From Bacteroidota bacterium (GTDB lineage: Bacteria; Bacteroidota; Bacteroidia; NS11-12g; UBA9320), in the NCBI GenBank assembly GCA_016124755.1, contig WGNA01000002.1, positions 124,001 to 188,000 on the forward strand: 64,000 nucleotides of DNA, in the 5' to 3' direction. The position numbers and the translations under genes are program-made. The notes under the pieces were generated by a model that saw nothing but the letters and a program-made list of their open reading frames with translations, did not search any database and was not told where the DNA came from. The stretch's first letter is position 1; every line of letters starts with the position of its first letter. Below, piece by piece: positions 4,368-28,567 of the stretch.

Positions 4368-5720
4368 CTACGACTGAGCGGCGATCAATCCATGAATAAA
4401 ATCTGCGATCTCGTTGTTGTTGAACATCGCTTCAATATCGTGTTTCGCCATAAGTTCCTTAATCCAAACATCCTGTTTCTTGCCGGCTTCGAATGCCTGT
4501 GAATACGGGATATCGCTGAAAGAAACCTGACTGTAAAGCGGAATATATTTATCCGGATAAAGTTTTTGAATTTCGCGTTCAAATCTCTTTTGCAAAAGAA
4601 AATCGGGATCGGCAACCACGTCGCGCATGACCAGATAATTATCTAATGATAAATTCTGAACCGCATCTCCTTCCGGTTTTCTCAGGATTTCATATTCACG
4701 GAAAATTGCATCCCAATCTTCACCGTGTTTCTGCATTAAGCTCCACATTACCGAGCAATCTTCGAAACCGCAATTCATTCCCTGACCGTAAAACGGAACC
4801 GTTGCATGTGCCGCATCGCCCATCAAGGCAACCTTTCCATGAGTCCACGGATAACAACGAATAATGGCAAGTGAAGAAAGTGGATGATCTTCCCAGGCAT
4901 CGGCTATTTCCGGCATGAGTTGATAAAAATCGGGAAATACCGTTTGGAAAAAATGCTCAACATCGGTTCGGGTCTTCAGCCGATCGAAAGCGTATTCATG
5001 ATTTTCAAAAGGCATAAAGAGCGTGCAGGTGAAGGAACCGTCTTCATTCGGAAGTGCAATTAACATAAACCTGCCTCTCGGCCAGATGTGCAAACTGTTT
5101 TTTGAAAGCTTGTGTGTTCCGTCCTCATTCGCCGGAAGTAAAATTTCGCGATATCCGTCTTCGATGTAATGCTGGCTGTACTGAAACCGGTCGAGTTTCT
5201 GCATCGCCCGGTAACGCACGGCAGAAAAAGCACCATCGGCACCAAAGATCAGATCGGATTTAAGCTCGCTTGAAATTCCTGTTTTTGTGTTTTTGAAAAA
5301 GGTAATCCCGTTTTCCAGATCCACACCGGTGCATTGTTCATTAAACCGGATCTGAGCTCCGTGTTGTTCGGCAATATCCATCATGCGGCGATTGATCTCG
5401 CCCCTCGAAACGGAATAAATCGCCTGTCCTTCCTGTCCGTATGGCTGGTAAGTAAGATTACCTTCTGCATCGTGCATGGTTCTTCCGTACATCGGAATCG
5501 CAAAATCCTTGATCTGATCTTCGATTCCCACAGCTTTGAAAGCGGTCCAGCCTCTTTGGGAAAATGCGAGGTTGATAGATTTACCGGCCGCGATATCTGT
5601 ATTTCTCAGATCACTGCGCAATTCAACAATGTTAACGCTATAGCCGGCTTTGGTTAAAAATACAGCCCAAAGCGAACCGACCAATCCAGCGCCAACAATG
5701 GTGGCTGATTTATTTCCCAC
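4368..5720 (-). CDS. kmo: Kynurenine 3-monooxygenase
   Basis: This FAD-dependent hydroxylase converts kynurenine to 3-hydroxykynurenine with NADPH and O2. The 450-residue protein has the N-terminal dinucleotide fold VGAGLVGSLWA (residues about 10-20), a GADGAFSAVR (DG-type) motif, and the second FAD motif GDAAHATVPFYGQGMNCGFED. That last block, with GQGMN, is characteristic of the KMO family rather than of generic aromatic hydroxylases. The C-terminal region is short, as in other bacterial enzymes. The gene lies two bases after the stop of the 3-hydroxyanthranilate dioxygenase gene, so the two are probably translationally coupled. Confidence 0.93.
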   Translation of the reverse strand: MGNKSATIVGAGLVGSLWAVFLTKAGYSVNIVELRSDLRNTDIAAGKSINLAFSQRGWTAFKAVGIEDQIKDFAIPMYGRTMHDAEGNLTYQPYGQEGQAIYSVSRGEINRRMMDIAEQHGAQIRFNEQCTGVDLENGITFFKNTKTGISSELKSDLIFGADGAFSAVRYRAMQKLDRFQYSQHYIEDGYREILLPANEDGTHKLSKNSLHIWPRGRFMLIALPNEDGSFTCTLFMPFENHEYAFDRLKTRTDVEHFFQTVFPDFYQLMPEIADAWEDHPLSSLAIIRCYPWTHGKVALMGDAAHATVPFYGQGMNCGFEDCSVMWSLMQKHGEDWDAIFREYEILRKPEGDAVQNLSLDNYLVMRDVVADPDFLLQKRFEREIQKLYPDKYIPLYSQVSFSDIPYSQAFEAGKKQDVWIKELMAKHDIEAMFNNNEIADFIHGLIAAQS

Positions 5721-5722
5721 GA

Positions 5723-6244
5723 TTATTCTGTTTTAAGTTCTGGTTTTTCCATCCGGGTTCCGCACTTCGAACAGGTCGTTAAATTTTCATCGGCATAAAA
5801 CGATTCCATCAATACCGGAAGCTGTGTTACAATATTATCGAGGTGGAAATCGGCTTTGTATAATTGATTATCGCAGTTCTCACAAAACCAATAGCACGAA
5901 TCCATTTCAGTTTTTTCCCGACGGCGTTCAACTACAAGCCCCACTGTATTGGGTCCGCGTTGAGGTGAGTGCAATACTTTCGGAGGTAAGAGAAATATCT
6001 CTCCTTCTCTTATTTTAATAATGCGCCTTTTTCCGTTTTCAATAATCGGGAGTTCCATATCGCCTTCGAGCTGATAAAAGAATTCCTCTCCTTCGTTGTA
6101 GTGAAAATCTTTTCTCGCATTGGGACCACCGACTACCATTATAATAAAATCGGTGTCTTCGTAAACCACCTGATTGCCGACCGGCGGTTTTAGCAAGTAG
6201 CGATGTTCATCAATCCATTGCTTAAAATTAATAGGAAGTAACAT
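5723..6244 (-). CDS. nbaC: 3-hydroxyanthranilate 3,4-dioxygenase
   Basis: This cupin-fold non-heme iron enzyme cleaves 3-hydroxyanthranilate to 2-amino-3-carboxymuconate semialdehyde, which cyclises spontaneously to quinolinate, the NAD precursor, or is degraded further. The protein has 173 residues, the bacterial size. The iron site is visible as HYNEGEEFFYQLEGDM (His and Glu ligands) with a third ligand in PPKVLHSP. The C-terminus carries the second, rubredoxin-like metal site of bacterial enzymes as two Cys pairs, CENC and CSKC. The gene lies 13 bases after hppD and two bases before kmo. Confidence 0.93.
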   Translation of the reverse strand: MLLPINFKQWIDEHRYLLKPPVGNQVVYEDTDFIIMVVGGPNARKDFHYNEGEEFFYQLEGDMELPIIENGKRRIIKIREGEIFLLPPKVLHSPQRGPNTVGLVVERRREKTEMDSCYWFCENCDNQLYKADFHLDNIVTQLPVLMESFYADENLTTCSKCGTRMEKPELKTE

Positions 6245-6257
6245 AACTGGTTTAGAA

Positions 6258-7421
6258 TTATTTGTCCAGCGTTCCTCTTTTCACCTGCTCCGCTTCGATG
6301 GATTCGAACAAGGCTTGAAAGTTTCCTTTTCCGAACGACTGTGCACCTTTTCGCTGAATGATTTCAAAAAATAAAGTGGGTCTGTCAGTGAACGGTTTGG
6401 TGAAAATCTGAAGCAGATATCCTTCGTCGTCGCGATCGACCATGATTCCGTTTTCTTTCAGAATATTGAGATCTTCTGCAATGTCTCCGACCCGTTCAAG
6501 AACGGTGTCGTAATACGTTCCCGGAACATGTAAAAATTCTATTCCCCGGCTTCGCATTTGTTTTACGGTAAACACAATATCGTTCGTGGCAACGGCGATG
6601 TGCTGGCATCCGGCACCGTTGTAAAAGTCGCAGTATTCTTCAACTTGTGAGCGCTTCAATCCTTCCGCCGGCTCATTAATTGGGAACTTGATGCGACCGT
6701 TTCCATTGGTCATCACCTTACTCATAAGAGCGGTGTATTGAGTGGAAATATCTTTATCGTCGAAGGTTACAAGATTGACAAATCCCATCACATCACCATA
6801 GAATTTCGCCCAGGTATTCATTTCGCCCCAACCCACATTTCCAACCATGTGGTCGATATATTTTAAACCACACGAAGGCGGATTAAAGTCGGATTCCCAT
6901 TTCACAAAGCCCGGCAGAAATACTCCGTTGTAGTTTTTGCGTTCAACAAAAATGTGTACTGTGTCGCCGTACGTATGAATGCTGGATCGCACAACTTCTC
7001 CTTTATCATCGGTTTGAGAATACGGTTCGAAGTACGACTTAGCTCCTCTCGAAGTGGTTTCTTCCCAGGCCTTTGTTGCGTCTTCAACCCATAGAGCAAT
7101 CACTTTCACCCCATCTCCGTGTTTGGTGATATGATCGAAAATTTCGGTATTACCGGTTCCCGGCATCGGAGTCGTAAAAACCAACCGAATTTTATCCTGA
7201 ACCACTACGTATGAAGTGCGGTCTTTTAATCCGGTTTCAAGTCCGGCGTAACCCAGGGATTGAAAACCCATGGCAGATTTATAATAATGTGCCGCCTGCT
7301 TTGCATTACCAACATAATATTCTACGTAGTCGGTTCCGAGAATCGGGAGAAAGTCATCGGCTTCCGGAAAAATTTTCTCCAATCCGTAATCAAAATTTGT
7401 AACGTCTTTTAGTGTTTGCAT
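6258..7421 (-). CDS. hppD: 4-hydroxyphenylpyruvate dioxygenase
   Basis: This Fe(II) enzyme converts 4-hydroxyphenylpyruvate, the transamination product of tyrosine, to homogentisate. The 387 residues hold two vicinal-oxygen-chelate halves. Iron ligands can be placed in IDHMVGNV, CQHIAVATNDI and LFFEIIQRKG, all in the C-terminal half. The terminal FGKGNFQALFESIE block, which gates the active site, is complete. It lies 11 bases after hmgA, so substrate production and removal are encoded together. The length and motifs fit the bacterial/animal form well. Confidence 0.95.
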   Translation of the reverse strand: MQTLKDVTNFDYGLEKIFPEADDFLPILGTDYVEYYVGNAKQAAHYYKSAMGFQSLGYAGLETGLKDRTSYVVVQDKIRLVFTTPMPGTGNTEIFDHITKHGDGVKVIALWVEDATKAWEETTSRGAKSYFEPYSQTDDKGEVVRSSIHTYGDTVHIFVERKNYNGVFLPGFVKWESDFNPPSCGLKYIDHMVGNVGWGEMNTWAKFYGDVMGFVNLVTFDDKDISTQYTALMSKVMTNGNGRIKFPINEPAEGLKRSQVEEYCDFYNGAGCQHIAVATNDIVFTVKQMRSRGIEFLHVPGTYYDTVLERVGDIAEDLNILKENGIMVDRDDEGYLLQIFTKPFTDRPTLFFEIIQRKGAQSFGKGNFQALFESIEAEQVKRGTLDK

Positions 7422-7432
7422 AATAATGATAT

Positions 7433-8611
7433 TTAAAGGGCTTCAGCAGTTTCTTTAATACTCCACGATTTATAGTAATCGCCTACTTCTAATTTCATGG
7501 CTTCTTCGGTTATGGCAACCGGATTAAACGGATCAATCATTACCGCCAGTTCTTTGGTTTCTTTTTTTCCGATGCTTCTTTCAATGGCTCCGGGGTGCGG
7601 ACCATGTGGTATGCCGCCGGGGTGTAAAGTGATTTGTCCTTTCCGAATATTATTCCGGCTCATAAAATCTCCATCCACATAATATAGCAACTCATCTGCG
7701 TCGACATTGCTGTGGTGATAAGGAGCAGGAATCGCATCCGGGTGGTAGTCGTAAAGTCGCGGAACAAAAGAGCAGATTACGAAGTTGTTTCCTTCAAACT
7801 GCTGATGAATCGGAGGCGGCATGTGAATGCGTCCGGTTATCGGCTCGAAGTCGAAAATGGAAATCGCATACGGATAATTGAATCCGTCCCAACCCACTAC
7901 ATCAAACGGGTGATTTTCATAAATGTAGGAATAGAGAATTCCCTTTTTCTTGATAAAGATTTTGAAATCCCCTTTTTCATTATGCGTTTCCAGATCTTTC
8001 GGCAACCTAAAATCACGCTCGCAGAACGGAGAGTGTTCCAACATCTGTCCGAAGTTATTCCGGTATCTTGAAGGTGTTAAAATCGGACTGAAACTCTCGA
8101 CAATCAGCAGTCGGTTGTCGGTTGTATCAAACTCGATCCGATAAATGGTTCCGCGCGGAATAATGAGATAATCGCCGTATTTAAAATCGATACTTCCATA
8201 GGTTGTGCGGAGTTTACCCGATCCTTCGTGAACGAAAATCATTTCATCGGCATCTGCATTTTTAAAGAAATAATCTTTGGCAAAACCCATTGGAGCGGCC
8301 AATACCACGTGAAGATCATTATTAACAAACAGAGCCTTCCGGCTTTCAAGATAATCCTCTTCCGGCTGCAGGTTGAATCCCTGAAAACTCAATGCGCGCA
8401 TGTTGTCTTCCAAAACCACTTTTGGCCGGATGTTGCGCGGTTCATCAAACTGATGCACACAAGTAGGAGGGTAGTGGTGATAAAGCAGCGAAGACATTCC
8501 GGTAAATCCGGCGGTTCCGAACAATTCTTCCTGATATAAAGAACCATCTGCTTTACGGAATGTAACATGGCGTTTGTGCGGGATGCTTCCCAAACTGTGA
8601 TATCTTGGCAT
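7433..8611 (-). CDS. hmgA: Homogentisate 1,2-dioxygenase
   Basis: This enzyme opens the ring of homogentisate to maleylacetoacetate in tyrosine and phenylalanine breakdown. At 392 residues it is shorter than the roughly 430-445 residue proteobacterial and human enzymes. Family signatures are the N-terminal GSIPHKRHVTF, the cupin block FVHEGSG, the iron-ligand region PAPYHHSNVDADELLYYVDG, and the C-terminal HPGGIPHGPHPG. It is the first gene of the five-gene operon, whose promoter should lie in the 130 bases upstream. Maleylacetoacetate isomerase and fumarylacetoacetase are not in the window. Confidence 0.94.
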   Translation of the reverse strand: MPRYHSLGSIPHKRHVTFRKADGSLYQEELFGTAGFTGMSSLLYHHYPPTCVHQFDEPRNIRPKVVLEDNMRALSFQGFNLQPEEDYLESRKALFVNNDLHVVLAAPMGFAKDYFFKNADADEMIFVHEGSGKLRTTYGSIDFKYGDYLIIPRGTIYRIEFDTTDNRLLIVESFSPILTPSRYRNNFGQMLEHSPFCERDFRLPKDLETHNEKGDFKIFIKKKGILYSYIYENHPFDVVGWDGFNYPYAISIFDFEPITGRIHMPPPIHQQFEGNNFVICSFVPRLYDYHPDAIPAPYHHSNVDADELLYYVDGDFMSRNNIRKGQITLHPGGIPHGPHPGAIERSIGKKETKELAVMIDPFNPVAITEEAMKLEVGDYYKSWSIKETAEAL

Positions 8612-8743: not shown

Positions 8744-11608
8744 TTAATGCACAAAAACACAGGTTCTCGTTCCGGTGCGGCTCGACAGGGTAACATAATA
8801 AACCCCTTTAGGAACCGAATTAATTTCCGGGAACTGGCTGAGTGCAAATTGCTGATTGCTGAGAAATACCGGCAGATAAATGGAACTTACAATGCGACCG
8901 TTGCTGCTGTGCAGTTCGATGGTAACATCTTCGAGTGTTTCTCCCGAATTATACAATCCGGAATGTGCCCAGTCGTGAACCGGATTTCCGTACACCAACA
9001 AATTCCAGTCTTTACGAAAAGCTTTTGGAACTGCGCTGAAAGCCATCGCGTCGTAAGAAAGAGCGACGATATCTTCAATGGTTGTGAGTTCTAAAATTCC
9101 GGGGTGATTTGTTCCTCCGGAAGAGACAGTTTTGTTTACGACTACCCAGGTTCCCGAGGCTGAATCGATTTGAATAAAACACCAGTCATCGGTTACTCCA
9201 CCTTCTTCAAACGGTTTTTCATCGTAGGCAACACTCAGAACGAGATTCTTTCCGAAGCTCATTACTTCTTTTACACGAACCACATTCCCACCGAGATAAA
9301 CCGCACTGTCGTGATCAATTCGTTTCCAACGGGCGAGGTGCAAGAGAATTTCACTTCTGGATTTGAATTGATTGATCACAAAATCGGGGCGCATACGATT
9401 TGCTCCGGTAAGGCTTCTGTTAAAGGCTTTTGGAGTGTACGTGGAAGTGTCCGGTTCAAAAATCGAATCGGTAATGGAGCGGCTTTGAAATTCAATTTTG
9501 AGTTTGCTCCGGTTTTCGTACGAAGCCTTTGTTAGTCCGCGGATGAGATCCTTCATTTCCAGTTGATCGGGAAAAGGTTCATGACTTTTCACGTCGCGCT
9601 CTATACTACTCCTCAGATCGTTCCGGCTGCCTTCGCTAAAATCGTCGTATGCCGACATAAACCGGTCTATTCCGTCTAATGCTGTTTCGTACGCCGGCCA
9701 CTTTCGCAATGAATCGGGATGAATCAGTAAATCCCGGGGAGGGAAATACGGAAAGATCGTATCGCCTGAAAACGGGAAAACCGGGCCGTTGGTAATGCGC
9801 ATTTCTTCAAGTTGAACAGGAATCGCAATCGTGTCTGCCGGACCGGTTACCGGACGGTTGAAAATAATGTTAGGTTCCAGCTTAAATGTATCCGGGTGTT
9901 CTGCCGGAGGCCAGTAAATAAAATCCCGGTTCAGCGGAGTATTGGTGATGCGGCTGTCGATGATAATTACGAAAGGTGAATCGGGTGATTGGTATTTCCA
10001 GGTGTTAAACGGATCGGGCAATGCGAATTCAATCTTTTCCTGAAACTCTTTTCGATCGTTGGGTAGGGGCAAATCCGGAAAGAAGAACGGATTTTCATTT
10101 AAACCGGGAATCTCAATTTTGAGATGCATGTACCATTCTTTATCGCGATCGATTTCATTCCAGGCAAAACCGCAAATCCCCCCGATTATCGGGAATGAAT
10201 CGGTTTCATCTTTTGGGAGATCTAAAGTCGGATCTTTAAATCCTCCGGTTATTTTTTTCGGTTGATTAAAATGGATTGAGGTATCATTGCTCATCGACAC
10301 CACACTGTTGAGATAGCATTGCTGACCGGCTTCATCAAATTCGGGTAAATGCCATGCACCACCTGTCGCACTGTCGCAAACCATGGTTGAAGAGCGCTGT
10401 CTTTTACCCCCCGAATTTTTCTGGTTGCCATCATCTTTAATGTGAACCCGATCGAACCCACCCGAATGAACACATCCTGTTAAAACAACCGAATGAGCTC
10501 TTCTGAAAACTTTGTAGCCGGCAGAATCTACCAGATACATGGTGTTGAGAATAACCGTTTCGCCATTGGCAAGCTCAGATCGAAGCCAGGCGGGATTAAC
10601 ACCGGCATTCGGCAAACCTTTATTCATCAGATCACTGAGATTATCGGCGCGGTGTCCATATCTGGAATCGGGAGAAAAAACGCCTCCCCAAAGTTGAGCA
10701 TCCTGAGCGGCTGATTGATATTTAACATGAACAGGTGCCTGAATCGAATCGAAAAACTGCAGCAAGCCTGCAATCATATTCGCTGGAGTTACACCGTTTT
10801 TCGGATCTTTCTGCATGAGGTTGGTGAGCAGCGACATCATTCTTCGCTGGGCAAGGGAATCGGTTCCGAAAAATTGTTGGAAGATTTTTTCTAATTCTGC
10901 GTGATTCATTCCGAGCCAGGAAATGCCGTTGGAAGCGGCAGCCGGTCCACAGTTGTTTTCGTCGCCCGGATAATAAGGAATGCGGGAATCCCAACCCAGA
11001 ACGGTGTCGTATGAATACTTGCCGGCATTCAGATCAATGTTGGGAATGTTGCATCCTTCATACAAACCGGTTATAGTATTTCCCGAAAACCATTTTTTGA
11101 TTTGCGCGGGTGTTGAAGCCGGTAACCGGTAGTGAGGATTTAAGTGGTAATCTCCATAAACGGCAATTGAATCGTGCTGTACACTAACCGGCATATAATC
11201 CGTAGGTGAAATTACGGGAGCAGAGGTAAGAACACTGTCGCTGATCGTAAGGTGATAGAAAAGGGAGCCCATCCGGATTCCCGGAGTATAACCCATTTTG
11301 TCGGTAAGCTTAAAAGGAAGAACCCAGGTCTGAGTATCCGGGAAGTTTATGAGACCTACATTCTGTACTGCCCAGATGCTGCTCCCGGAAAAAATATCCT
11401 GAACCGAAATATTCACAAAGGCCGGAAGTCCGGATGGAGGGTTATAATATTCAACTGAAAAAGCAGCCGAAGAAGAATTGGTTTGCACCACAGATGCGGT
11501 AAACGAATACTGAGTCGCAGAATTCAGGCTTACATGAACCTGTGCTTTCAGATTCGAATTAAAGATTGCAACAATCAATAAGATGGTTCGAACGACATCC
11601 CGAAACAT
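8744..11608 (-). CDS. Secreted C39-like cysteine peptidase domain protein with T9SS sorting domain
   Basis: This 954-residue protein has a signal peptide ending near LKAQV. A papain-like C39-type domain is indicated by NNCGPAAASNGISWLG (Cys220) and RAHSVVLTGC (His372), followed by an Asp-rich KDDGNQ that could supply the third catalytic residue. This is the Cys-Gly-Pro-Ala layout of peptidase_C39_2 domains. The middle part (about 430-860) is Pro- and Asp-rich and unrecognised. The last 90 residues, with GNPV, a beta-rich core and PKGVYYVTLSSRTGTRTCVFVH, form a type A T9SS sorting domain. The protein should therefore be exported and surface-attached or released. Substrate is unknown, and peptidase activity is an inference from two motifs. 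Confidence 0.75.
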   Translation of the reverse strand: MFRDVVRTILLIVAIFNSNLKAQVHVSLNSATQYSFTASVVQTNSSSAAFSVEYYNPPSGLPAFVNISVQDIFSGSSIWAVQNVGLINFPDTQTWVLPFKLTDKMGYTPGIRMGSLFYHLTISDSVLTSAPVISPTDYMPVSVQHDSIAVYGDYHLNPHYRLPASTPAQIKKWFSGNTITGLYEGCNIPNIDLNAGKYSYDTVLGWDSRIPYYPGDENNCGPAAASNGISWLGMNHAELEKIFQQFFGTDSLAQRRMMSLLTNLMQKDPKNGVTPANMIAGLLQFFDSIQAPVHVKYQSAAQDAQLWGGVFSPDSRYGHRADNLSDLMNKGLPNAGVNPAWLRSELANGETVILNTMYLVDSAGYKVFRRAHSVVLTGCVHSGGFDRVHIKDDGNQKNSGGKRQRSSTMVCDSATGGAWHLPEFDEAGQQCYLNSVVSMSNDTSIHFNQPKKITGGFKDPTLDLPKDETDSFPIIGGICGFAWNEIDRDKEWYMHLKIEIPGLNENPFFFPDLPLPNDRKEFQEKIEFALPDPFNTWKYQSPDSPFVIIIDSRITNTPLNRDFIYWPPAEHPDTFKLEPNIIFNRPVTGPADTIAIPVQLEEMRITNGPVFPFSGDTIFPYFPPRDLLIHPDSLRKWPAYETALDGIDRFMSAYDDFSEGSRNDLRSSIERDVKSHEPFPDQLEMKDLIRGLTKASYENRSKLKIEFQSRSITDSIFEPDTSTYTPKAFNRSLTGANRMRPDFVINQFKSRSEILLHLARWKRIDHDSAVYLGGNVVRVKEVMSFGKNLVLSVAYDEKPFEEGGVTDDWCFIQIDSASGTWVVVNKTVSSGGTNHPGILELTTIEDIVALSYDAMAFSAVPKAFRKDWNLLVYGNPVHDWAHSGLYNSGETLEDVTIELHSSNGRIVSSIYLPVFLSNQQFALSQFPEINSVPKGVYYVTLSSRTGTRTCVFVH

Positions 11609-11693: not shown

Positions 11694-14600
11694 TTAGTAA
11701 ACCGGAAAATCAAAAAGAACACTTCCCTGTCGCATCACGGGCTTCTGAGCTCCACCGGTTAAGGCTTCCACTTTGGGAATCACAAATTGCTGCAACTCAT
11801 TTACACTTATATATCCGTCGTGATTCTGATCGGCATCCGGATCGTTGAGCGCAGAAATTACGGAATAGGTAAAGACACCATTTTTCCATTTATCAGATTC
11901 CAGCGCATAGCTGTTTCCCGCTGCTGCTGCAATAATTTCGGTGCCCGAACCCCGGCTCAGATTAACAAATAATTCCTGCATCAGATTGAAACTATTGAGC
12001 AATCCCAGATTGGATTTCGAAATAGATTTGCCGCCTTTGAAATTCTGGCTTACCAAACGAAGACTATCGTTCTCACTAAAAGTGTCTGCCGGTAACATCG
12101 ACTCTTTGTCCACTTCACCGCTGTGACAAGCGTCTACCAAAAGAAGTTTTTTACGCGCCGGAACCGAATCGAGCAACCATTCAAGCTCTTCGTAAGAAAT
12201 TCCTCTTTTTGGCGGGTCCGAAAAATCCATGTCGCAGGTTGCAAACCACCAGTTGAAAGAAGTATCCAACAACCCGTGACCGGAAACGAAAATTACTATT
12301 GCATCATTCACTGAAGTCTTTAGTAATCGTTCCTTCAACCGAAGAATATTTTCCCGCGTGACGGATTCATTAAAAAAGGAATCCACTTCAATCCGATAAT
12401 TTTTTTGATGCTGTATAAAAGCATTCATTAAATCGTGCCCGTCTTTGTCTGCATACTTCAACCGGAACCGTGTATCGCGGTAATCCGAAATGCTGATCGG
12501 TATAAAATGAAGAATGGGTGTAGCCGGTTCGTCATCCAGTTGAATCTGGAAACTTTCCCGTAGCGATTCCAATCCGGAAGTATTCGAACAACTCACCTCA
12601 ATCGTATTCATTCCGGAACCAAGAGTTACCACAATTTTTTGTTCTAATGTGTGAATGGTGTTTCCGTTCGCCGGTTTTCCGTTTTTCCCCCAGACCGGAA
12701 CTCCGTTAATCCAGACGTGTATGTATTTAAGTGCCGATTGAGAGTCGGTACATCGAATGTTGAATTGAAAAGTACTATCCGAAACATGTAGAGGAATTTC
12801 TGTCCGGTTCAACTCGATAACCGGAACCGAAGTCGGATTGTCGGGCAGATTTTCAAATCTTTTCATTCGCCGGTTTCGGGCTTCCTCAAAAGAGGTCAGC
12901 AACTTTTCGGAAGCTTTTCCCATTTCTTTCAGCACTTCCGCCGGCCGGTTGTTTTGCAGATCGAACTGATCGAATGTGTACGCATTTCTGCCAACCGAGT
13001 AATGAATGTATTCCGGTACTTTCCCCGCAAACACAAAGTATTTGCCATCCGGCAGAACTACAAAAACACCTTCTTCGGAACCCGAAATAATGCGGTATCG
13101 TTCGTTGAGTTCCAAATCGTATTGAATGATTTCGTTGTAATCGACTATTACAAAACCGCTGTCGTTTGCAACTGCATCGAGCGGATAAAACACGTTGTGC
13201 GGTCGAACTTTCTCCAACATTTCCGGGTCTTCCAATGCAAAGCGAAACATGTTTTTAGAGCCGGTTACCAGCAACCATTTTCCATCCTGAGAAACGACCA
13301 TGGAGTTAATTCCGTCGGCGAGTAAACCGACTCTTTTAAGAACCAAATTATTCTTAAAATCAAACAGAGAAATTTCCGACCCGGCGTAATGACTTTTACC
13401 GACAAACGCTAATCTGGCTGTTCGGTGAAATATCGCGCAGTTAAAACTTTGAGCACTGCCGGTAACCCAAATTGAGTCGCCGGAAATCGAAACGAAATGC
13501 AGAATGTCTTGGTGTAGTTCGTCGTATCCCGGAAAAATCAGGGTTGTTTGGTCTTTGCTTAATTGAAGCTTGTTGATTTTATCGGTTGCGACTCGCTCTC
13601 CCGGGAACGAAAGTCCGTCGGTGAGCACACGCTTTTTCAAATCAAATTTAACGATGCGATATTTTTCATCCGGCTCCGAACCGAAGGTAAAAAGCAGAAC
13701 TTCATTTCTTTTTTCAATTATCTGTGCTTCCAGCAGAATCTCATTGTGTAGTGCGATGGAGGCTACCGGTTTGGCTTCCCCGGCTTTTAGTAAAGTGTAC
13801 ACCATGTCGTAGTTTTCTCCGGATTCGCGATAAGCCGAAGTATCTTCCACTAACCAGTAACCGCTGCCGGCTAAATGAAATGGACGATAGGCATTTGTGG
13901 TGTCTTTGTGATAGCGGTATTCTCGTGGATTTGAGAAGTCGAGTTCATGCAGTGTATTACCGTTGCGAACCAATACATTCTTATCGTTAAAATAGTCCAC
14001 GGCTGTGTATTGAACCTGAATGCAGGATGGTGCCTCCCGTTCAAACCGCTTTTTGTCGAGTCGAACCGACCTGAGATTTCCATCCACAGAAAGCATTGCA
14101 TAATCTCCATCGGGATGAAGGCTAAAAGCGGTGGTTCCGCCATCAGTGTAAAAGGTAACTACCGGATCCCAGTATTTGCGGATCAGATCGAATCGGTACA
14201 GGCAACTAAAATTATAACCTTCTTCATCCACCGAATCTGCATAATGAATAAAATAGAAGCTTTTGCCATCGGGTGAAAACTCTGCGTGAGCATCACCAAA
14301 CCGGAATTTTCCATTTGCGATTCGTTTACCGCTTTTAATATCATAAACTTCCCAGGGAGACATGCCGCCACTAAAAATGGGCGCGTCTATCGGATAGACC
14401 ATCAGCAGTCGGGTTCCGTCGGGAGAAATTTTATAATCGTATAAATAGTCGTGTTTTCTTTTAATGCGAAATGTTTTCCCGTGTCGGTTAAAATTCGTGT
14501 CGAGCAGAACCACTTTTTTGTGTTTATAAACTCCCAACCATTTGTGCAGGGAAGCAGAATACATCAACCGGTTGTAATCTCCCCGTTTACTGCCGGTTTG

Positions 14601-15992
14601 TTCGGAGGTTTTTATCGAGAAAATGCGGATTCCTTCTTTTTCGAAAAATCCGTTGGCATCAATGAGTTGGTTAATTTCTGTACTAAAACCTTCGGGGTGA
14701 TATGATCTGGAGAATACTTTTAAAACCCTTCCGGTGTTGAGATCGATAATGCGGAATTTGTCTTTACACATGCAGAAAATCTGTTGGCGATCTTCATCAA
14801 TTACAACCGGTTGGGGATGCGTGGTCTCAAGCTGAACCGGGATTTTACGGATTTGTCGCAGACTACGGTTGTCCCATAGTGTGATGTGATCGTCGTTTGC
14901 CGGCGATGTTATAAAGTAATTTCCCTTGTTGCTGTAAAAAATATCCTGAACATCGAGCTGCCGTTGAAACTGAACCTGAAATTTATCGGAAGACTGAGTG
15001 GAAAAGGTTTCTGCGGTTTGGTTTAAAAAAGATATGCCCGTTATTCTCGGATTATCTTCGTTTCGATAAAGGGTATGAACAACTTCCGGATTTTTAAAGT
15101 CCCGGATTTCTATCTCCTGTTTTAATACATTTCCCGACCAACGCTCCAATACCCACGCGAAGCTTTTATCATTAGCACAAAAGAAAGACAGGTATTTATT
15201 GTCGGTCGGACGGGCAAGCGTATGCCAGTCGTTTGAGTCCGGATTACAAGAAAAAATACCATTACTGGTCTGAACATAAAACCGATCGGCAGAGTCGTTT
15301 AAACCGAATATTCTCTCTACCGACCCAAGATTTAAAGGGCTTTCAATTTTTTCTAAAACACTACTCTTTCTGTCTATAATAAATAATTTGGGCTGGTAAG
15401 AATTGAATCTTTCTGCAACAATAAAACGCTGTTTATCCTTCATCGGAAACATCACGGAGTAGTCAACCGGAACCTTTACTTGTTTCGACAAAGACATGTT
15501 TGAGAAGTTGTAAATCAAAAACCAGTTACTCCTTACTGCATAAGTGGTAGCAACTGCCGCAACCTCATGATCGCTGATGAAATAACCTTCAAAATTCTGG
15601 AAGTCTTTTAGCCCGGAACTTCTCAAAAACACATCATTTTGCGCCTGATAGAGCGACAAGTGGTTGATGTAGTGACTTCCCGACGGGTTATAATTCGGAA
15701 CGGATTCGAAGGTTTGAATTCTTTCATTCACCGAAAGCCGTGAAAAATTTTCGGAAGAATAATAGGAAGCGGCAAAATTCGGATCTCTCAACTGGATCCG
15801 ATGCTGATTTGTATCGACACCAATTATGGTAACAGGTGTTTCCGATTCAATAATTTTTTCAGGATCCTTTGTATCTGATTTTAATTGAAAAACCGAAGAA
15901 CCGGAACTGTACATCAGGGTTTGCGCCTGTACTAACGGATTCAACAAAAAGGAAATCAAGAAAAATCTGATTAGCAGGAACCGTTGTTTCAT
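11694..15992 (-). CDS. Exported propeller-caspase protein with EF-hand
   Basis: This 1432-residue protein starts with a signal peptide (hydrophobic run ending near VQAQ). Residues about 25-1040 are WD40/propeller-like repeats, with many short W-D or phi-D-phi blades such as ITLWDNRSL and SPDGTRLL. A beta-sandwich-like segment (about 1070-1150) precedes a C-terminal caspase-fold (peptidase C14) domain. The catalytic pair is intact: His1239 in FVSGHG and Cys1289 in LLVDACHSGE. A perfect 12-residue EF-hand loop, DQNHDGYISVNE, lies near residue 1383, inside the caspase domain. This suggests calcium-dependent activity, as in metacaspases. No T9SS tail is present. It lies 85 bases upstream of the C39-like gene on the same strand. 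The target is unknown. Confidence 0.85.
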   Translation of the reverse strand: MKQRFLLIRFFLISFLLNPLVQAQTLMYSSGSSVFQLKSDTKDPEKIIESETPVTIIGVDTNQHRIQLRDPNFAASYYSSENFSRLSVNERIQTFESVPNYNPSGSHYINHLSLYQAQNDVFLRSSGLKDFQNFEGYFISDHEVAAVATTYAVRSNWFLIYNFSNMSLSKQVKVPVDYSVMFPMKDKQRFIVAERFNSYQPKLFIIDRKSSVLEKIESPLNLGSVERIFGLNDSADRFYVQTSNGIFSCNPDSNDWHTLARPTDNKYLSFFCANDKSFAWVLERWSGNVLKQEIEIRDFKNPEVVHTLYRNEDNPRITGISFLNQTAETFSTQSSDKFQVQFQRQLDVQDIFYSNKGNYFITSPANDDHITLWDNRSLRQIRKIPVQLETTHPQPVVIDEDRQQIFCMCKDKFRIIDLNTGRVLKVFSRSYHPEGFSTEINQLIDANGFFEKEGIRIFSIKTSEQTGSKRGDYNRLMYSASLHKWLGVYKHKKVVLLDTNFNRHGKTFRIKRKHDYLYDYKISPDGTRLLMVYPIDAPIFSGGMSPWEVYDIKSGKRIANGKFRFGDAHAEFSPDGKSFYFIHYADSVDEEGYNFSCLYRFDLIRKYWDPVVTFYTDGGTTAFSLHPDGDYAMLSVDGNLRSVRLDKKRFEREAPSCIQVQYTAVDYFNDKNVLVRNGNTLHELDFSNPREYRYHKDTTNAYRPFHLAGSGYWLVEDTSAYRESGENYDMVYTLLKAGEAKPVASIALHNEILLEAQIIEKRNEVLLFTFGSEPDEKYRIVKFDLKKRVLTDGLSFPGERVATDKINKLQLSKDQTTLIFPGYDELHQDILHFVSISGDSIWVTGSAQSFNCAIFHRTARLAFVGKSHYAGSEISLFDFKNNLVLKRVGLLADGINSMVVSQDGKWLLVTGSKNMFRFALEDPEMLEKVRPHNVFYPLDAVANDSGFVIVDYNEIIQYDLELNERYRIISGSEEGVFVVLPDGKYFVFAGKVPEYIHYSVGRNAYTFDQFDLQNNRPAEVLKEMGKASEKLLTSFEEARNRRMKRFENLPDNPTSVPVIELNRTEIPLHVSDSTFQFNIRCTDSQSALKYIHVWINGVPVWGKNGKPANGNTIHTLEQKIVVTLGSGMNTIEVSCSNTSGLESLRESFQIQLDDEPATPILHFIPISISDYRDTRFRLKYADKDGHDLMNAFIQHQKNYRIEVDSFFNESVTRENILRLKERLLKTSVNDAIVIFVSGHGLLDTSFNWWFATCDMDFSDPPKRGISYEELEWLLDSVPARKKLLLVDACHSGEVDKESMLPADTFSENDSLRLVSQNFKGGKSISKSNLGLLNSFNLMQELFVNLSRGSGTEIIAAAAGNSYALESDKWKNGVFTYSVISALNDPDADQNHDGYISVNELQQFVIPKVEALTGGAQKPVMRQGSVLFDFPVY

Positions 15993-16077: not shown

Positions 16078-17346
16078 TTACTCCGAAGCGAAAACAATAT
16101 CGTCTTGAGTTTGCAATTCCCTCCAATACCGATGAAAGGCTATGGCAATGGTTAAAACATAAAGTGCTGCAATGAATTTTCGGGAGAAGAGAAAGATGCC
16201 GTGGTTTTGAAATTTTAACATTCGCAGTACATCTTCCAGATTTAATAAATAGGCAACACAAGCCAGAACAGCCGGCAAGGGATCCTTTTTATAAAGACCG
16301 TAAACAATCAGAAATATAAGAGCCGGATGAGAATATCGCTCGTGCATTTGTGTGTTAAAAAAGAAAAAGGCGAGCGGAATTAATGCCATCGAAAGCCACA
16401 TGATTTCCGGAGTAAAGCGAACTTTTTGTTTTTCTTTTAATGCTTTAATCAATCGCAATAACAGAGGGGAAAGCACACTAAAACTAAAAGCAAAAAATAA
16501 AATGAGACCCCATTTTTTGAGTGTTAGTCCGAGCCACAACCGGTCGTCGGGAATTATCATCAGATTGCCGTTTATCAGGAAATGCCAGAGGTTGTAAGCA
16601 TTCATGGAAATCACCGGGTATTTATCAACCGAGTCGAAAACAATTTTCCAGAGAATGGGAAATGTACCGGCTTTCAGAAACGGGAGAACAATCAGAAATT
16701 GAAGAAGTGCAGGAGCGGCGATCCAAACTATTAATTTTTTTAGACTAAATGAATGGATGATTTCCGGGAGCAGAAATAAACCGATCACCGGGAAGAAAAC
16801 AATGGCCTGCAACTTCATGTTGAGCGCCAAAATGAAGAACAGAATGGCGGGAACAACCTTCTTCCGCCAGGTGAAAAAAACCGAAATGAATACGAAGGCG
16901 GTAAAGATCGAATCGACTTGTCCCCAAACTAAAGTATTGTAAAGAATGGCGGCATTCAGAACGTAAAACACGACGCGGTTCAGCGCTTTTTCTTCAGGAA
17001 GTCCGAGCCGGATAAGCCAGTTGATTATGTAAAATCCGGAGATGAGATCAAATGCATACGTGTAAAGTTTGAGGTAAGAAAGGTTTGAAATAAGTTCTGC
17101 AGTTCCCGATTGAAAAGAACCGAACAACCAGAGGATGTAATGATAAAGCGGAAGGTAGTCGGTTCCGCATTCGTACACTTTTCCGAGTCCGTGTTCTTTG
17201 ATGCAGGTTGCCCAGGTTCGCCAGCATTCCGTATCCCAGCCATTCGGATATTCAGGATTGATGAACAACATCAGAAACATCAGAAATGCAGCCTGAACGA
17301 GATAGCGGAATTGCCATTTGTGAAGTACGTCTCTGAACAAAAGCAT
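16078..17346 (-). CDS. GT-C type membrane glycosyltransferase (Gpi18/mannosyltransferase-like)
   Basis: This 422-residue polytopic protein has about ten hydrophobic segments. After the first segment comes a short extracytoplasmic loop, NPEYPNGWDTECWRTWA, whose acidic residue matches the catalytic-loop position of GT-C transferases that use lipid-phosphate sugars. DYLPLYHYILWLFG follows, then a LVWGQVDSIFTAF segment, both typical of Gpi18-like/GT87 families. The likely role is transfer of a sugar onto an envelope lipid or protein on the periplasmic face. Donor and acceptor cannot be named. It stands upstream of the caspase gene on the same strand with an 85-base gap. Confidence 0.7.
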   Translation of the reverse strand: MLLFRDVLHKWQFRYLVQAAFLMFLMLFINPEYPNGWDTECWRTWATCIKEHGLGKVYECGTDYLPLYHYILWLFGSFQSGTAELISNLSYLKLYTYAFDLISGFYIINWLIRLGLPEEKALNRVVFYVLNAAILYNTLVWGQVDSIFTAFVFISVFFTWRKKVVPAILFFILALNMKLQAIVFFPVIGLFLLPEIIHSFSLKKLIVWIAAPALLQFLIVLPFLKAGTFPILWKIVFDSVDKYPVISMNAYNLWHFLINGNLMIIPDDRLWLGLTLKKWGLILFFAFSFSVLSPLLLRLIKALKEKQKVRFTPEIMWLSMALIPLAFFFFNTQMHERYSHPALIFLIVYGLYKKDPLPAVLACVAYLLNLEDVLRMLKFQNHGIFLFSRKFIAALYVLTIAIAFHRYWRELQTQDDIVFASE

Positions 17347-26710: not shown

Positions 26711-28567
26711 ATGAGAAGCTTCGGGAATTGTATTGCGATCTGTTTTTTATTGGGAGCGTTTCTGTTTATGCGCGTACAAAAAAGTGTTGCACAGCCGGCG
26801 GACTCACTGTTGAACATTTGGAAAAATACGTCGGTTTCTGATAGTGTGAGGGCGAACGCTTATGAGCAGTATATCTGGGAAAACGAAGCGTATTCGCGCC
26901 CGTTTGAGGCGTTGAAGATGGCGAGAGATCTGCGGGATTTTTCTGAAAAGACAGGATATACAACCGGCGTACTGAAGTCGGCGAATCTGATGGGTGTGAT
27001 TTACAACAATTCCGGTAATTACGGAAAAGCGTTGCTATTGTTTGAACAGAATCTGGCGCTTTCGGAGCAGACGGGAAATATAAAGGGGGTGCTTTCGGCG
27101 CTGGGCAATATCGGCTTGATTTATCAATATCAGAATCAGTCTGAAAAGGCTTTAAATCAGTTTCTGCGAGTGCTGAAAATAGCGGAAGAATCGGGCGACA
27201 AGCGGGCGATTGCCACTACACGAAATAATATTGGGGTTGCTCGGATGAAATTGGAAAAACCGAACGAAGCCATGTCGGATTTCCGGAATAGTTTTCGGCT
27301 TTGCGAAGAGATACGGGACACAGTAGGGATGGCGAGAGCACTGAACAATATTGCGTGGGTTTATGAGAAAACCGGTTTCATCGATTCGTCGATCCGGATC
27401 AATCGGGAAGGTCTTCAACTGGAAACAATTGTTGGCAATAAAAAAGGGATGGCGTTGTCTCAATACAGTATTGGCTCGAAATATTTAGAATCGGGAAAGG
27501 CCGGGGAGGCGATAGAATGGTGCGGGGAAGCGTTCAAAATAAGTGAAGCGTCTGGATATATGGTGACACTTCGCGACGCATGTGACTGTTTGTACAAAGC
27601 CAATAAGGAAATGAATAATATGGTTGCCGGGCTCCGGTATCTGGAAATGAAGAACCGGTTGGATGACAGTTTAAAAAAAGAGGAAGCCGGGGAAAAACTG
27701 TTGCAGATGGAATTTCGGCAACGGGAAGCTGAAGACAGCATAGCTGCGGAAAAGGAGAAATTGATGGTGCAATTGAAACACGAAGAAGAGTTGCACAGAA
27801 CATCGATAATGCGAAACCAGTTGATCGGTTCGGTGATTTTATTGGTAATTATTTCGGTTGGTTTTTACCTGCGTTCGAGACTAATGCGCAAGTCGAGAAA
27901 TGCCATTGCCGTGGAAAAGGAGCGATCAGAAAATTTATTGCTGAACATATTGCCGCAGGAGATTGCGGAGGAATTGAAGCGGGAAGGGAAAGCACAGGCC
28001 CGGGAATTTCGGGATGTTTCGATTTTGTTTACCGATTTCAAAGGTTTTACGAGTGTATCGGAGAAAATGAATGCAGTGGAATTGGTGGATGAAATTCATC
28101 ATTGTTTTAAGGCGTTTGACGGCATTTGCGACCAACACGGAATTGAAAAAATAAAGACGATCGGAGATTCGTATATGGCTGCCGGAGGGTTACCGGTTGC
28201 ATCGGATGATTCGGCGAAGAAAACGGTTATGGTTGCTCTGGAAATGCAGGAGTTTATGGAGAAACGAAGGGCGGAACGAATGGCAAGCGGGGCTATACCT
28301 TTTGAGATGCGGGCCGGCATACACACAGGTTCGGTGGTGGCGGGAATTGTGGGTGTACGAAAATTTCAATACGATGTATGGGGAGATACCGTGAATACCG
28401 CATCACGGATGGAAAGTTCGGGACTGGCAGGACGAGTGAATATATCGCGCCAGACGTATGAACGAATTAAAAATGATAAGGAATTCGAATTTGAGCACCG
28501 CGGATTAGTTGAGGCAAAAGGAAAGGGAGAAGTAGAAATGTGGTTTGTGAAAATAAAAAAGGGCTAA
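26711..28567 (+). CDS. TPR-containing class III adenylate cyclase
   Basis: The 618-residue protein has an N-terminal signal or anchor helix, about six TPR-like repeats (residues about 70-300, with NIGLIYQYQNQSEKAL and NNIAWVYEKTG patterns), a coiled coil (about 310-365), a membrane helix (371-389) and a cytoplasmic class III cyclase domain (about 420-618). Catalytic residues are complete: metal Asp442 in FTDFKGF, metal Asp486 in KTIGDSY, adenine-selecting Lys480 and Asp555 (in YDVWGDTVN), and transition-state Asn562 and Arg566. It should make cAMP in response to a signal sensed by the periplasmic TPR region. The stop codon lies in the downstream terminator stem. Confidence 0.9.
   Translation: MRSFGNCIAICFLLGAFLFMRVQKSVAQPADSLLNIWKNTSVSDSVRANAYEQYIWENEAYSRPFEALKMARDLRDFSEKTGYTTGVLKSANLMGVIYNNSGNYGKALLLFEQNLALSEQTGNIKGVLSALGNIGLIYQYQNQSEKALNQFLRVLKIAEESGDKRAIATTRNNIGVARMKLEKPNEAMSDFRNSFRLCEEIRDTVGMARALNNIAWVYEKTGFIDSSIRINREGLQLETIVGNKKGMALSQYSIGSKYLESGKAGEAIEWCGEAFKISEASGYMVTLRDACDCLYKANKEMNNMVAGLRYLEMKNRLDDSLKKEEAGEKLLQMEFRQREAEDSIAAEKEKLMVQLKHEEELHRTSIMRNQLIGSVILLVIISVGFYLRSRLMRKSRNAIAVEKERSENLLLNILPQEIAEELKREGKAQAREFRDVSILFTDFKGFTSVSEKMNAVELVDEIHHCFKAFDGICDQHGIEKIKTIGDSYMAAGGLPVASDDSAKKTVMVALEMQEFMEKRRAERMASGAIPFEMRAGIHTGSVVAGIVGVRKFQYDVWGDTVNTASRMESSGLAGRVNISRQTYERIKNDKEFEFEHRGLVEAKGKGEVEMWFVKIKKG

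Follow-up and report, generated by a model that had tools for sequence, protein, structure and literature searches.

Caspase relatives in bacteria are mostly treated as cytosolic enzymes of death or defence, and the locus described here raises the question of what such an enzyme might do outside the cytoplasm. It lies in a 64,000-nucleotide stretch of a Bacteroidota bacterium genome (assembly GCA_016124755.1, contig WGNA01000002.1, positions 124,001 to 188,000; hereafter the window), where an open reading frame on the minus strand (11694-15992) encodes a protein of 1432 residues with a signal peptide, a long all-beta region, an immunoglobulin-like (Ig-like) domain and a C-terminal caspase domain of family C14. 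On balance, its sequence and structural model favour a C14 cysteine peptidase that carries propellers, leaves the cytoplasm by the Sec route and resides in the periplasm or envelope of Bacteroidota; it would cut after Arg or Lys, clip its own linker and have its fold stabilised or licensed by Ca2+. The features of the gene are as follows, in window coordinates.

11694..15992, minus strand: whole gene, predicted exported propeller-Ig-caspase protein, 1432 residues (open reading frame and domain search)
15924..15992, minus strand: predicted Sec/signal peptidase I (SPI) signal peptide, residues 1-23, VQA^Q, Q-rule (hydropathy and motif rule; PMC5837995)
12993..15923, minus strand: residues 24-1000, all-beta region read as diverged WD40-type propellers (Pfam, model, Foldseek)
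12858..12974, minus strand: residues 1007-1045, three-helix linker (model)
12537..12821, minus strand: residues 1058-1152, beta-sandwich, putative Ig-like domain ahead of the caspase (fold inferred from model strands, confidence score about 85-95)
11697..12515, minus strand: residues 1160-1432, caspase (C14) domain with p20-like and p10-like halves (Pfam, model, Foldseek, VIA-align)
12441..12443, minus strand: Asp1184, predicted S1 pocket, at the position of metacaspase Asp95 and MALT1 Asp365 (alignment)
12276..12278, minus strand: catalytic His1239 (motif and alignment, DNA checked)
12132..12134, minus strand: Asp1287, second residue ahead of Cys1289, predicted S1 pocket (alignment)
12126..12128, minus strand: catalytic Cys1289 (motif and alignment, DNA checked)
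11991..12122, minus strand: residues 1291-1334, variable, disordered p20-p10 linker (confidence score <50; column variability)
12033..12038, minus strand: conserved basic-Gly pair Lys1319-Gly1320, which may be a self-processing site (alignment)
11796..11831, minus strand: residues 1388-1399, EF-hand loop DQNHDGYISVNE, flanked by helices 1373-1383 and 1397-1412 (motif, model, alignment)

The caspase domain and its predicted specificity

The Pfam C14 profile (PF00656) spans residues 1166-1425 (E=1.8e-11; score 44.6 bits, cut-off 21.4). Within it, the motifs SGHG and DACHSG place His1239 and Cys1289, confirming the catalytic dyad that a first-pass annotation of this DNA had named. A model of residues 1001-1432, with a mean predicted local distance difference test (pLDDT) score of 79.9, comprises a helical linker, an Ig-type beta-sandwich and the caspase domain. 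MALT1 tops the Foldseek list for the caspase part, and VIA-align gave Z-scores of about 20-22 over ~200 residues (22.0 for GSU0716, 21.8 for AtMCA4 and 20.6 for MALT1, with AtMCA9 in the same range). A phmmer search of the full protein against the PDB found no match, and metacaspases were reached by the family profile only.

Species-representative genomes were scanned with a C-terminal profile, drawn from a closer alignment because the first one was too diverse; the scan confirmed 430 relatives, and 78 of these loci were retained. His, Cys, Asp1184 and Asp1287 are all present in 95/95 aligned members (96 rows with one mis-framed row, L129, which is excluded here), Cys and Asp1287 being partly selected by one of the two scan patterns, DxCHSG, and His and Asp1184 being free of that selection. 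All 27 members of alignment A1, which was gathered without the DxCHSG pattern, retain the same four residues. Loss of His or Cys in most close homologues, which the first-pass annotation had considered fatal to its proposal, was thus not observed.

The family profile puts Asp1184 at the position of the metacaspase alpha1 Asp. In TbMCA2 and MALT1, this residue and the Asp two positions before the catalytic Cys line the S1 pocket for Arg/Lys (PMC4357240). Since both acidic S1 residues are present and invariant, cleavage after Arg or Lys, not after Asp, is predicted with good confidence, and the earlier suggestion of an "Arg/Lys or Asp" peptidase can be narrowed to its first part. A comparable degree of confidence attaches to the prediction that the protein is an active peptidase.

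In the same genome, a pattern search found C14 proteins lacking the DxC motif (L106 3100-5706, L069 2023-6153 and L068 5390-6436), which are possible pseudo-caspases beside active-looking paralogues.

Predicted export and the propeller region

At the N-terminus, MKQRFLLIRFFLISFLLNPLVQA^QTL, a positively charged n-region and a hydrophobic core precede a cleavage site of the AxA type with Gln at +1. In Bacteroidetes, most SPI substrates carry Gln at +1, where it is cyclised (PMC5837995). Signal peptides were called by a simple hydropathy and motif rule, not by SignalP, and for homologue loci the rule takes the best start within 200 codons; on this basis a signal peptide is predicted in 65/69 loci with an intact 5' end. 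Gln follows the SPI-type site in 60/67 strong-core sequences (the 1432-residue protein and named homologues). Within the window, the metabolic enzymes are without the SPI-Gln signature and several other evidently secreted proteins have it. The protein is almost certainly exported, as far as sequence can tell, and the cytosolic location that had been named as the other way to overturn the first-pass annotation did not materialise in the relatives, which are predicted to be non-cytosolic.

The C-terminal sorting domain of the type IX secretion system (T9SS) gave no match in the 1432-residue protein or in the other 26 members of alignment A1. Because this tail is missing throughout the 27 sequences, the periplasm or envelope is the likeliest predicted location, a narrower placement than the "envelope or extracellular" one first suggested.

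The first-pass annotation also described about 1000 residues of propeller repeats. The kind of repeat is upheld by the relatives, with WD40 models matching 15-16 of the 19 N-terminal halves in the alignment, many of them strongly (down to E=7e-88), and by Foldseek, which ranks tandem WD propellers first for the N-terminal model. This copy's own WD40/PD40 matches are fragmentary and weak (Pfam, best E=4e-7), and the model of residues 1-1061 is too poor for blade counting (pLDDT 52.8). We take the region to consist of diverged WD-type propellers.

A predicted calcium-binding loop inside the caspase fold

The sequence DQNHDGYISVNE at residues 1388-1399 is the sole EF-loop match in the whole protein and was checked on the DNA. 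It has the 12 residues of an EF-hand loop, with ligands at positions 1, 3, 5 and 12, Gly at 6, a hydrophobic residue at 8 and helices on either side; in the model it lies in the p10-like half with a pLDDT of about 91. The "perfect EF-hand" reported near residue 1383 in the caspase domain was therefore right as to loop and domain, and its position is corrected to 1388-1399. Pfam EF-hand matches in the protein fall below the gathering cut-offs. Shuffled sequences contain such a motif in 0.3% of cases for the caspase domain and in 1.3% for the whole protein.

The 78 homologue translations have the strict motif 31 times at this position and nowhere else in 89,525 residues. The survey of EF-hand and signal peptide that had been proposed with the first annotation bore both out across the relatives: the ligands are 96-99% conserved (in 96 rows, D in 93 at position 1, N/D/S in 94 at position 3, D/N in 93 at position 5 and E in 93 at position 12), with signal peptides at the frequency given above. 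Gly6 is kept in 44/96 rows. When a looser ligand motif was mapped on a tree of 74 rows, 4 changes were needed against 24 in shuffles. Because the tree needs so few changes, the loop is a clade trait by this sequence measure, marking the propeller/Ig clade. None of the other caspases sampled has the loop, be they short and exported (L068, L082) or devoid of a signal peptide (L074, L076). The loop thus tracks architecture, not export as such.

The loop probably binds Ca2+. That Ca2+ would regulate the enzyme rather than merely stabilise it is a tentative proposal, somewhat less likely than not. As a separate observation, one relative (L100 1804-5385, minus strand) has a long insertion at the EF site, at residues about 1118-1160, with a second EF-type loop, DLNRNGIIDEHE.

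The linker between the p20-like and p10-like halves

Residues 1291-1334 are modelled with pLDDT <50 and their alignment columns are mostly variable. Within them, position 1319 is basic in 91/95 members (R in 70, K in 21) and 1320 is Gly in 86/95; the dipeptide [KR]G was found in 81/90 linkers against 34 expected by shuffling. Self-cleavage between p20 and p10 is known from caspases and some metacaspases, and MaOC1 cleaves itself after Arg219 (PMC7475262, PMC5756287). Because the basic-Gly pair stands out in a variable linker and C14 self-cleavage has this precedent, a self-processing site is the best reading of Lys1319-Gly1320, although we give this candidate role only an even chance, a structural role being the alternative.

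Relatives and distribution

Relatives of the full protein were found in 9 of the 58 genomes searched (its own included), with six matches in its own genome. Within this genome, nine proteins account for ten C14 matches, and a phylum-wide sample of 118 genomes contained C14 in 31. The kept loci come nearly all from Bacteroidota, with a few from Ignavibacteria and Cloacimonadota and one from Delongbacteria, and no relative was found in viral contigs. On this sampling, the protease part is a widespread, little-studied family of predicted envelope proteases and not an oddity. The singularity that the first description implied does not hold, as signal peptide and EF loop together are the normal state in a widespread Bacteroidota clade.

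Genomic neighbourhood

In the window, the gene is flanked by a membrane protein gene (16078-17346) and by a gene at 8744-11608 (minus strand) for an orphan exported protein that weakly matches C39-like peptidases and has a T9SS tail of type A. The C39-like gene had no relative in 57 related genomes, so that it is confined to its own among the 58 searched. TATCTTTG, a TAnnTTTG-like (Bacteroidota -7-like) box, stands just ahead of its ATG; the Bacteroidota-type promoter pattern had no exact match within the window. Given this confinement and its own box, the C39-like gene is unsupported as an operon partner.

In relatives, a lipoprotein gene lies directly or closely upstream of the caspase gene at 14 loci, sometimes overlapping its start:

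L090 2867-3937; L110 2233-3225; L177 2188-3219; others (14 loci): lipoprotein genes upstream of the propeller-caspase gene

The lipobox Cys is invariant in the ten lipoproteins aligned, and one of the four members scanned matches Pfam VWA (E=1.8e-5). Genes for outer-membrane beta-barrel proteins also precede the caspase gene at some relatives' loci, and both kinds of neighbour support an envelope setting for the clade.

Elsewhere in the window, a kynurenine/tyrosine catabolism cluster (3-hydroxyanthranilate dioxygenase, HPPD, HmgA-like) adjoins at 4368-8611 (minus strand). A gene at 26711-28567 (plus strand) encodes an adenylate/guanylate cyclase domain with an exported-looking N-terminus and tetratricopeptide repeats, and a similar cyclase lies close to caspase genes at L089 11252-13081.

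Proposed mechanism and alternatives

In the mechanism that we propose, the EF loop would bind Ca2+ after export, fixing the two p10-like helices and the neighbouring substrate loop in an active arrangement. The enzyme would cut after Arg or Lys, its own linker being clipped after Lys1319 (Arg in most relatives) like that of other C14 peptidases, and the propellers and Ig-like domain would dock substrates or partners.

Several observations weigh against this proposal. A few clade members have lost or shortened the EF loop and kept the dyad, namely L089 and the full-length own-genome paralogue L093, in which the loop is missing; because L093 keeps its dyad, calcium would not be needed by every member. 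The EF-hand is single here, and single EF loops are often weak binders. The lipoprotein found upstream in relatives is absent from the own genome. Finally, the position of the metacaspase pocket Cys (TbMCA2 Cys92) is Ala1181 here and A/T/S/P across the family, and some C14 proteins that have lost this Cys show weak or no activity (PMC5756287), although MALT1-like enzymes manage without it.

The single loop and its shortening in L093 and L089, which keep the dyad, would suit a purely structural Ca2+ site without regulation; the envelope protease would then be constitutive, with a housekeeping or nutritional role. Sites of this sort are usually saturated by the Ca2+ present outside the cell, and gingipains carry stabilising Ca2+ sites (PMC4357240). 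Nothing decisive speaks against this explanation, to which we assign a chance slightly short of even. The ligands are strongly conserved and the propeller half is very variable, a contrast that fits stability as well as regulation.

It is unlikely that the protein is a scaffold or sensor with a retained dyad, in which the propellers do the work and the caspase domain serves as a partner-binding or once-only self-cleaving module. The extent of the propeller-type region (about 1000 of 1432 residues), Ala1181 and the own-genome paralogues without a DxC motif (L069, L106) would suit such a role, but a dyad and two S1 Asp residues invariant in 95 members fit selection for catalysis. Membership in a cytosolic system for conflict or defence, of the EACC1/VMAP caspase type, is very improbable. 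In its favour are an NCBIfam EACC1-associated caspase match below the cut-off (NF047832; 59.3 bits against 140) and a weak PADLOC "caspase" match (16.9 bits); against it, a signal peptide is present, none of nine neighbours has a PADLOC match and the neighbours include aromatic-catabolism genes.

The exported calcium-loop peptidase remains our preferred reading, and it could be extended to an extracytoplasmic, calcium-gated caspase network. Several exported propeller-caspase zymogens per genome would be licensed through their EF-hands by external Ca2+ only after export and cleave themselves at the Arg/Lys-Gly linker site, with propellers choosing envelope targets and lipoproteins as operon partners in some lineages. 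This extension is speculative and improbable as a whole. An exported clade with a calcium loop in the catalytic domain would contrast with the usual cytosolic caspase relatives, since it could be silent in the cytoplasm, where calcium is low, and gain competence once outside. As a candidate activation site, the basic-Gly pair can be tested directly, and relatives without the EF loop are built-in controls.

Comparison with known systems

Gingipains (family C25) are Arg/Lys proteases that Bacteroidota export; they have a caspase fold, Ca2+ sites and an Ig-like domain, and the present protein is predicted to resemble them in all of this. They differ in family, in their T9SS signal and in the placement of their Ca2+ sites, and no C25 profile match was found in the protein. 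Type I/II metacaspases (TbMCA2, AtMCA4) share the fold, the Arg/Lys pocket and the calcium link, but are eukaryotic and have another architecture than propeller-Ig-caspase; the TbMCA2 Ca2+ site consists of four Asp residues (173, 189, 190, 220; PMC4357240), whereas an EF loop is found here. The MALT1 paracaspase is alike in its Ig and caspase layout and in the two Asp positions that give it Arg specificity, as they are predicted to do here, but is calcium-independent, dimerising, cytosolic and human.

Orthocaspases or bacterial metacaspases (MEROPS C14) with WD40 repeats have the p20 fold, the His/Cys dyad, an acidic S1 pocket and accessory WD40 in common with this protein. WD40 repeats occur in 26% of cyanobacterial caspase homologues (PMC8283722), and MaOC1 is calcium-independent (PMC7475262). 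The present protein differs from them in its predicted cleavable signal peptide, its N-terminal propellers, its Ig-like domain and the EF loop in its p10-like half. An EF-hand motif is listed in seven archaeal orthocaspases, which likewise combine C14 and EF-hand in one protein; there the EF-hand is among additional terminal domains, not a conserved loop inside the fold, and it is not reported for exported Bacteroidota proteins (PMC6426788). A search of the open-access literature found no paper on exported EF-hand caspases of Bacteroidota. Because C14 proteins with WD40 repeats and orthocaspases with EF-hands are already known, and we found no description of an exported clade with the EF loop inside the caspase fold, the protein is best placed as a variant of a known C14 kind.

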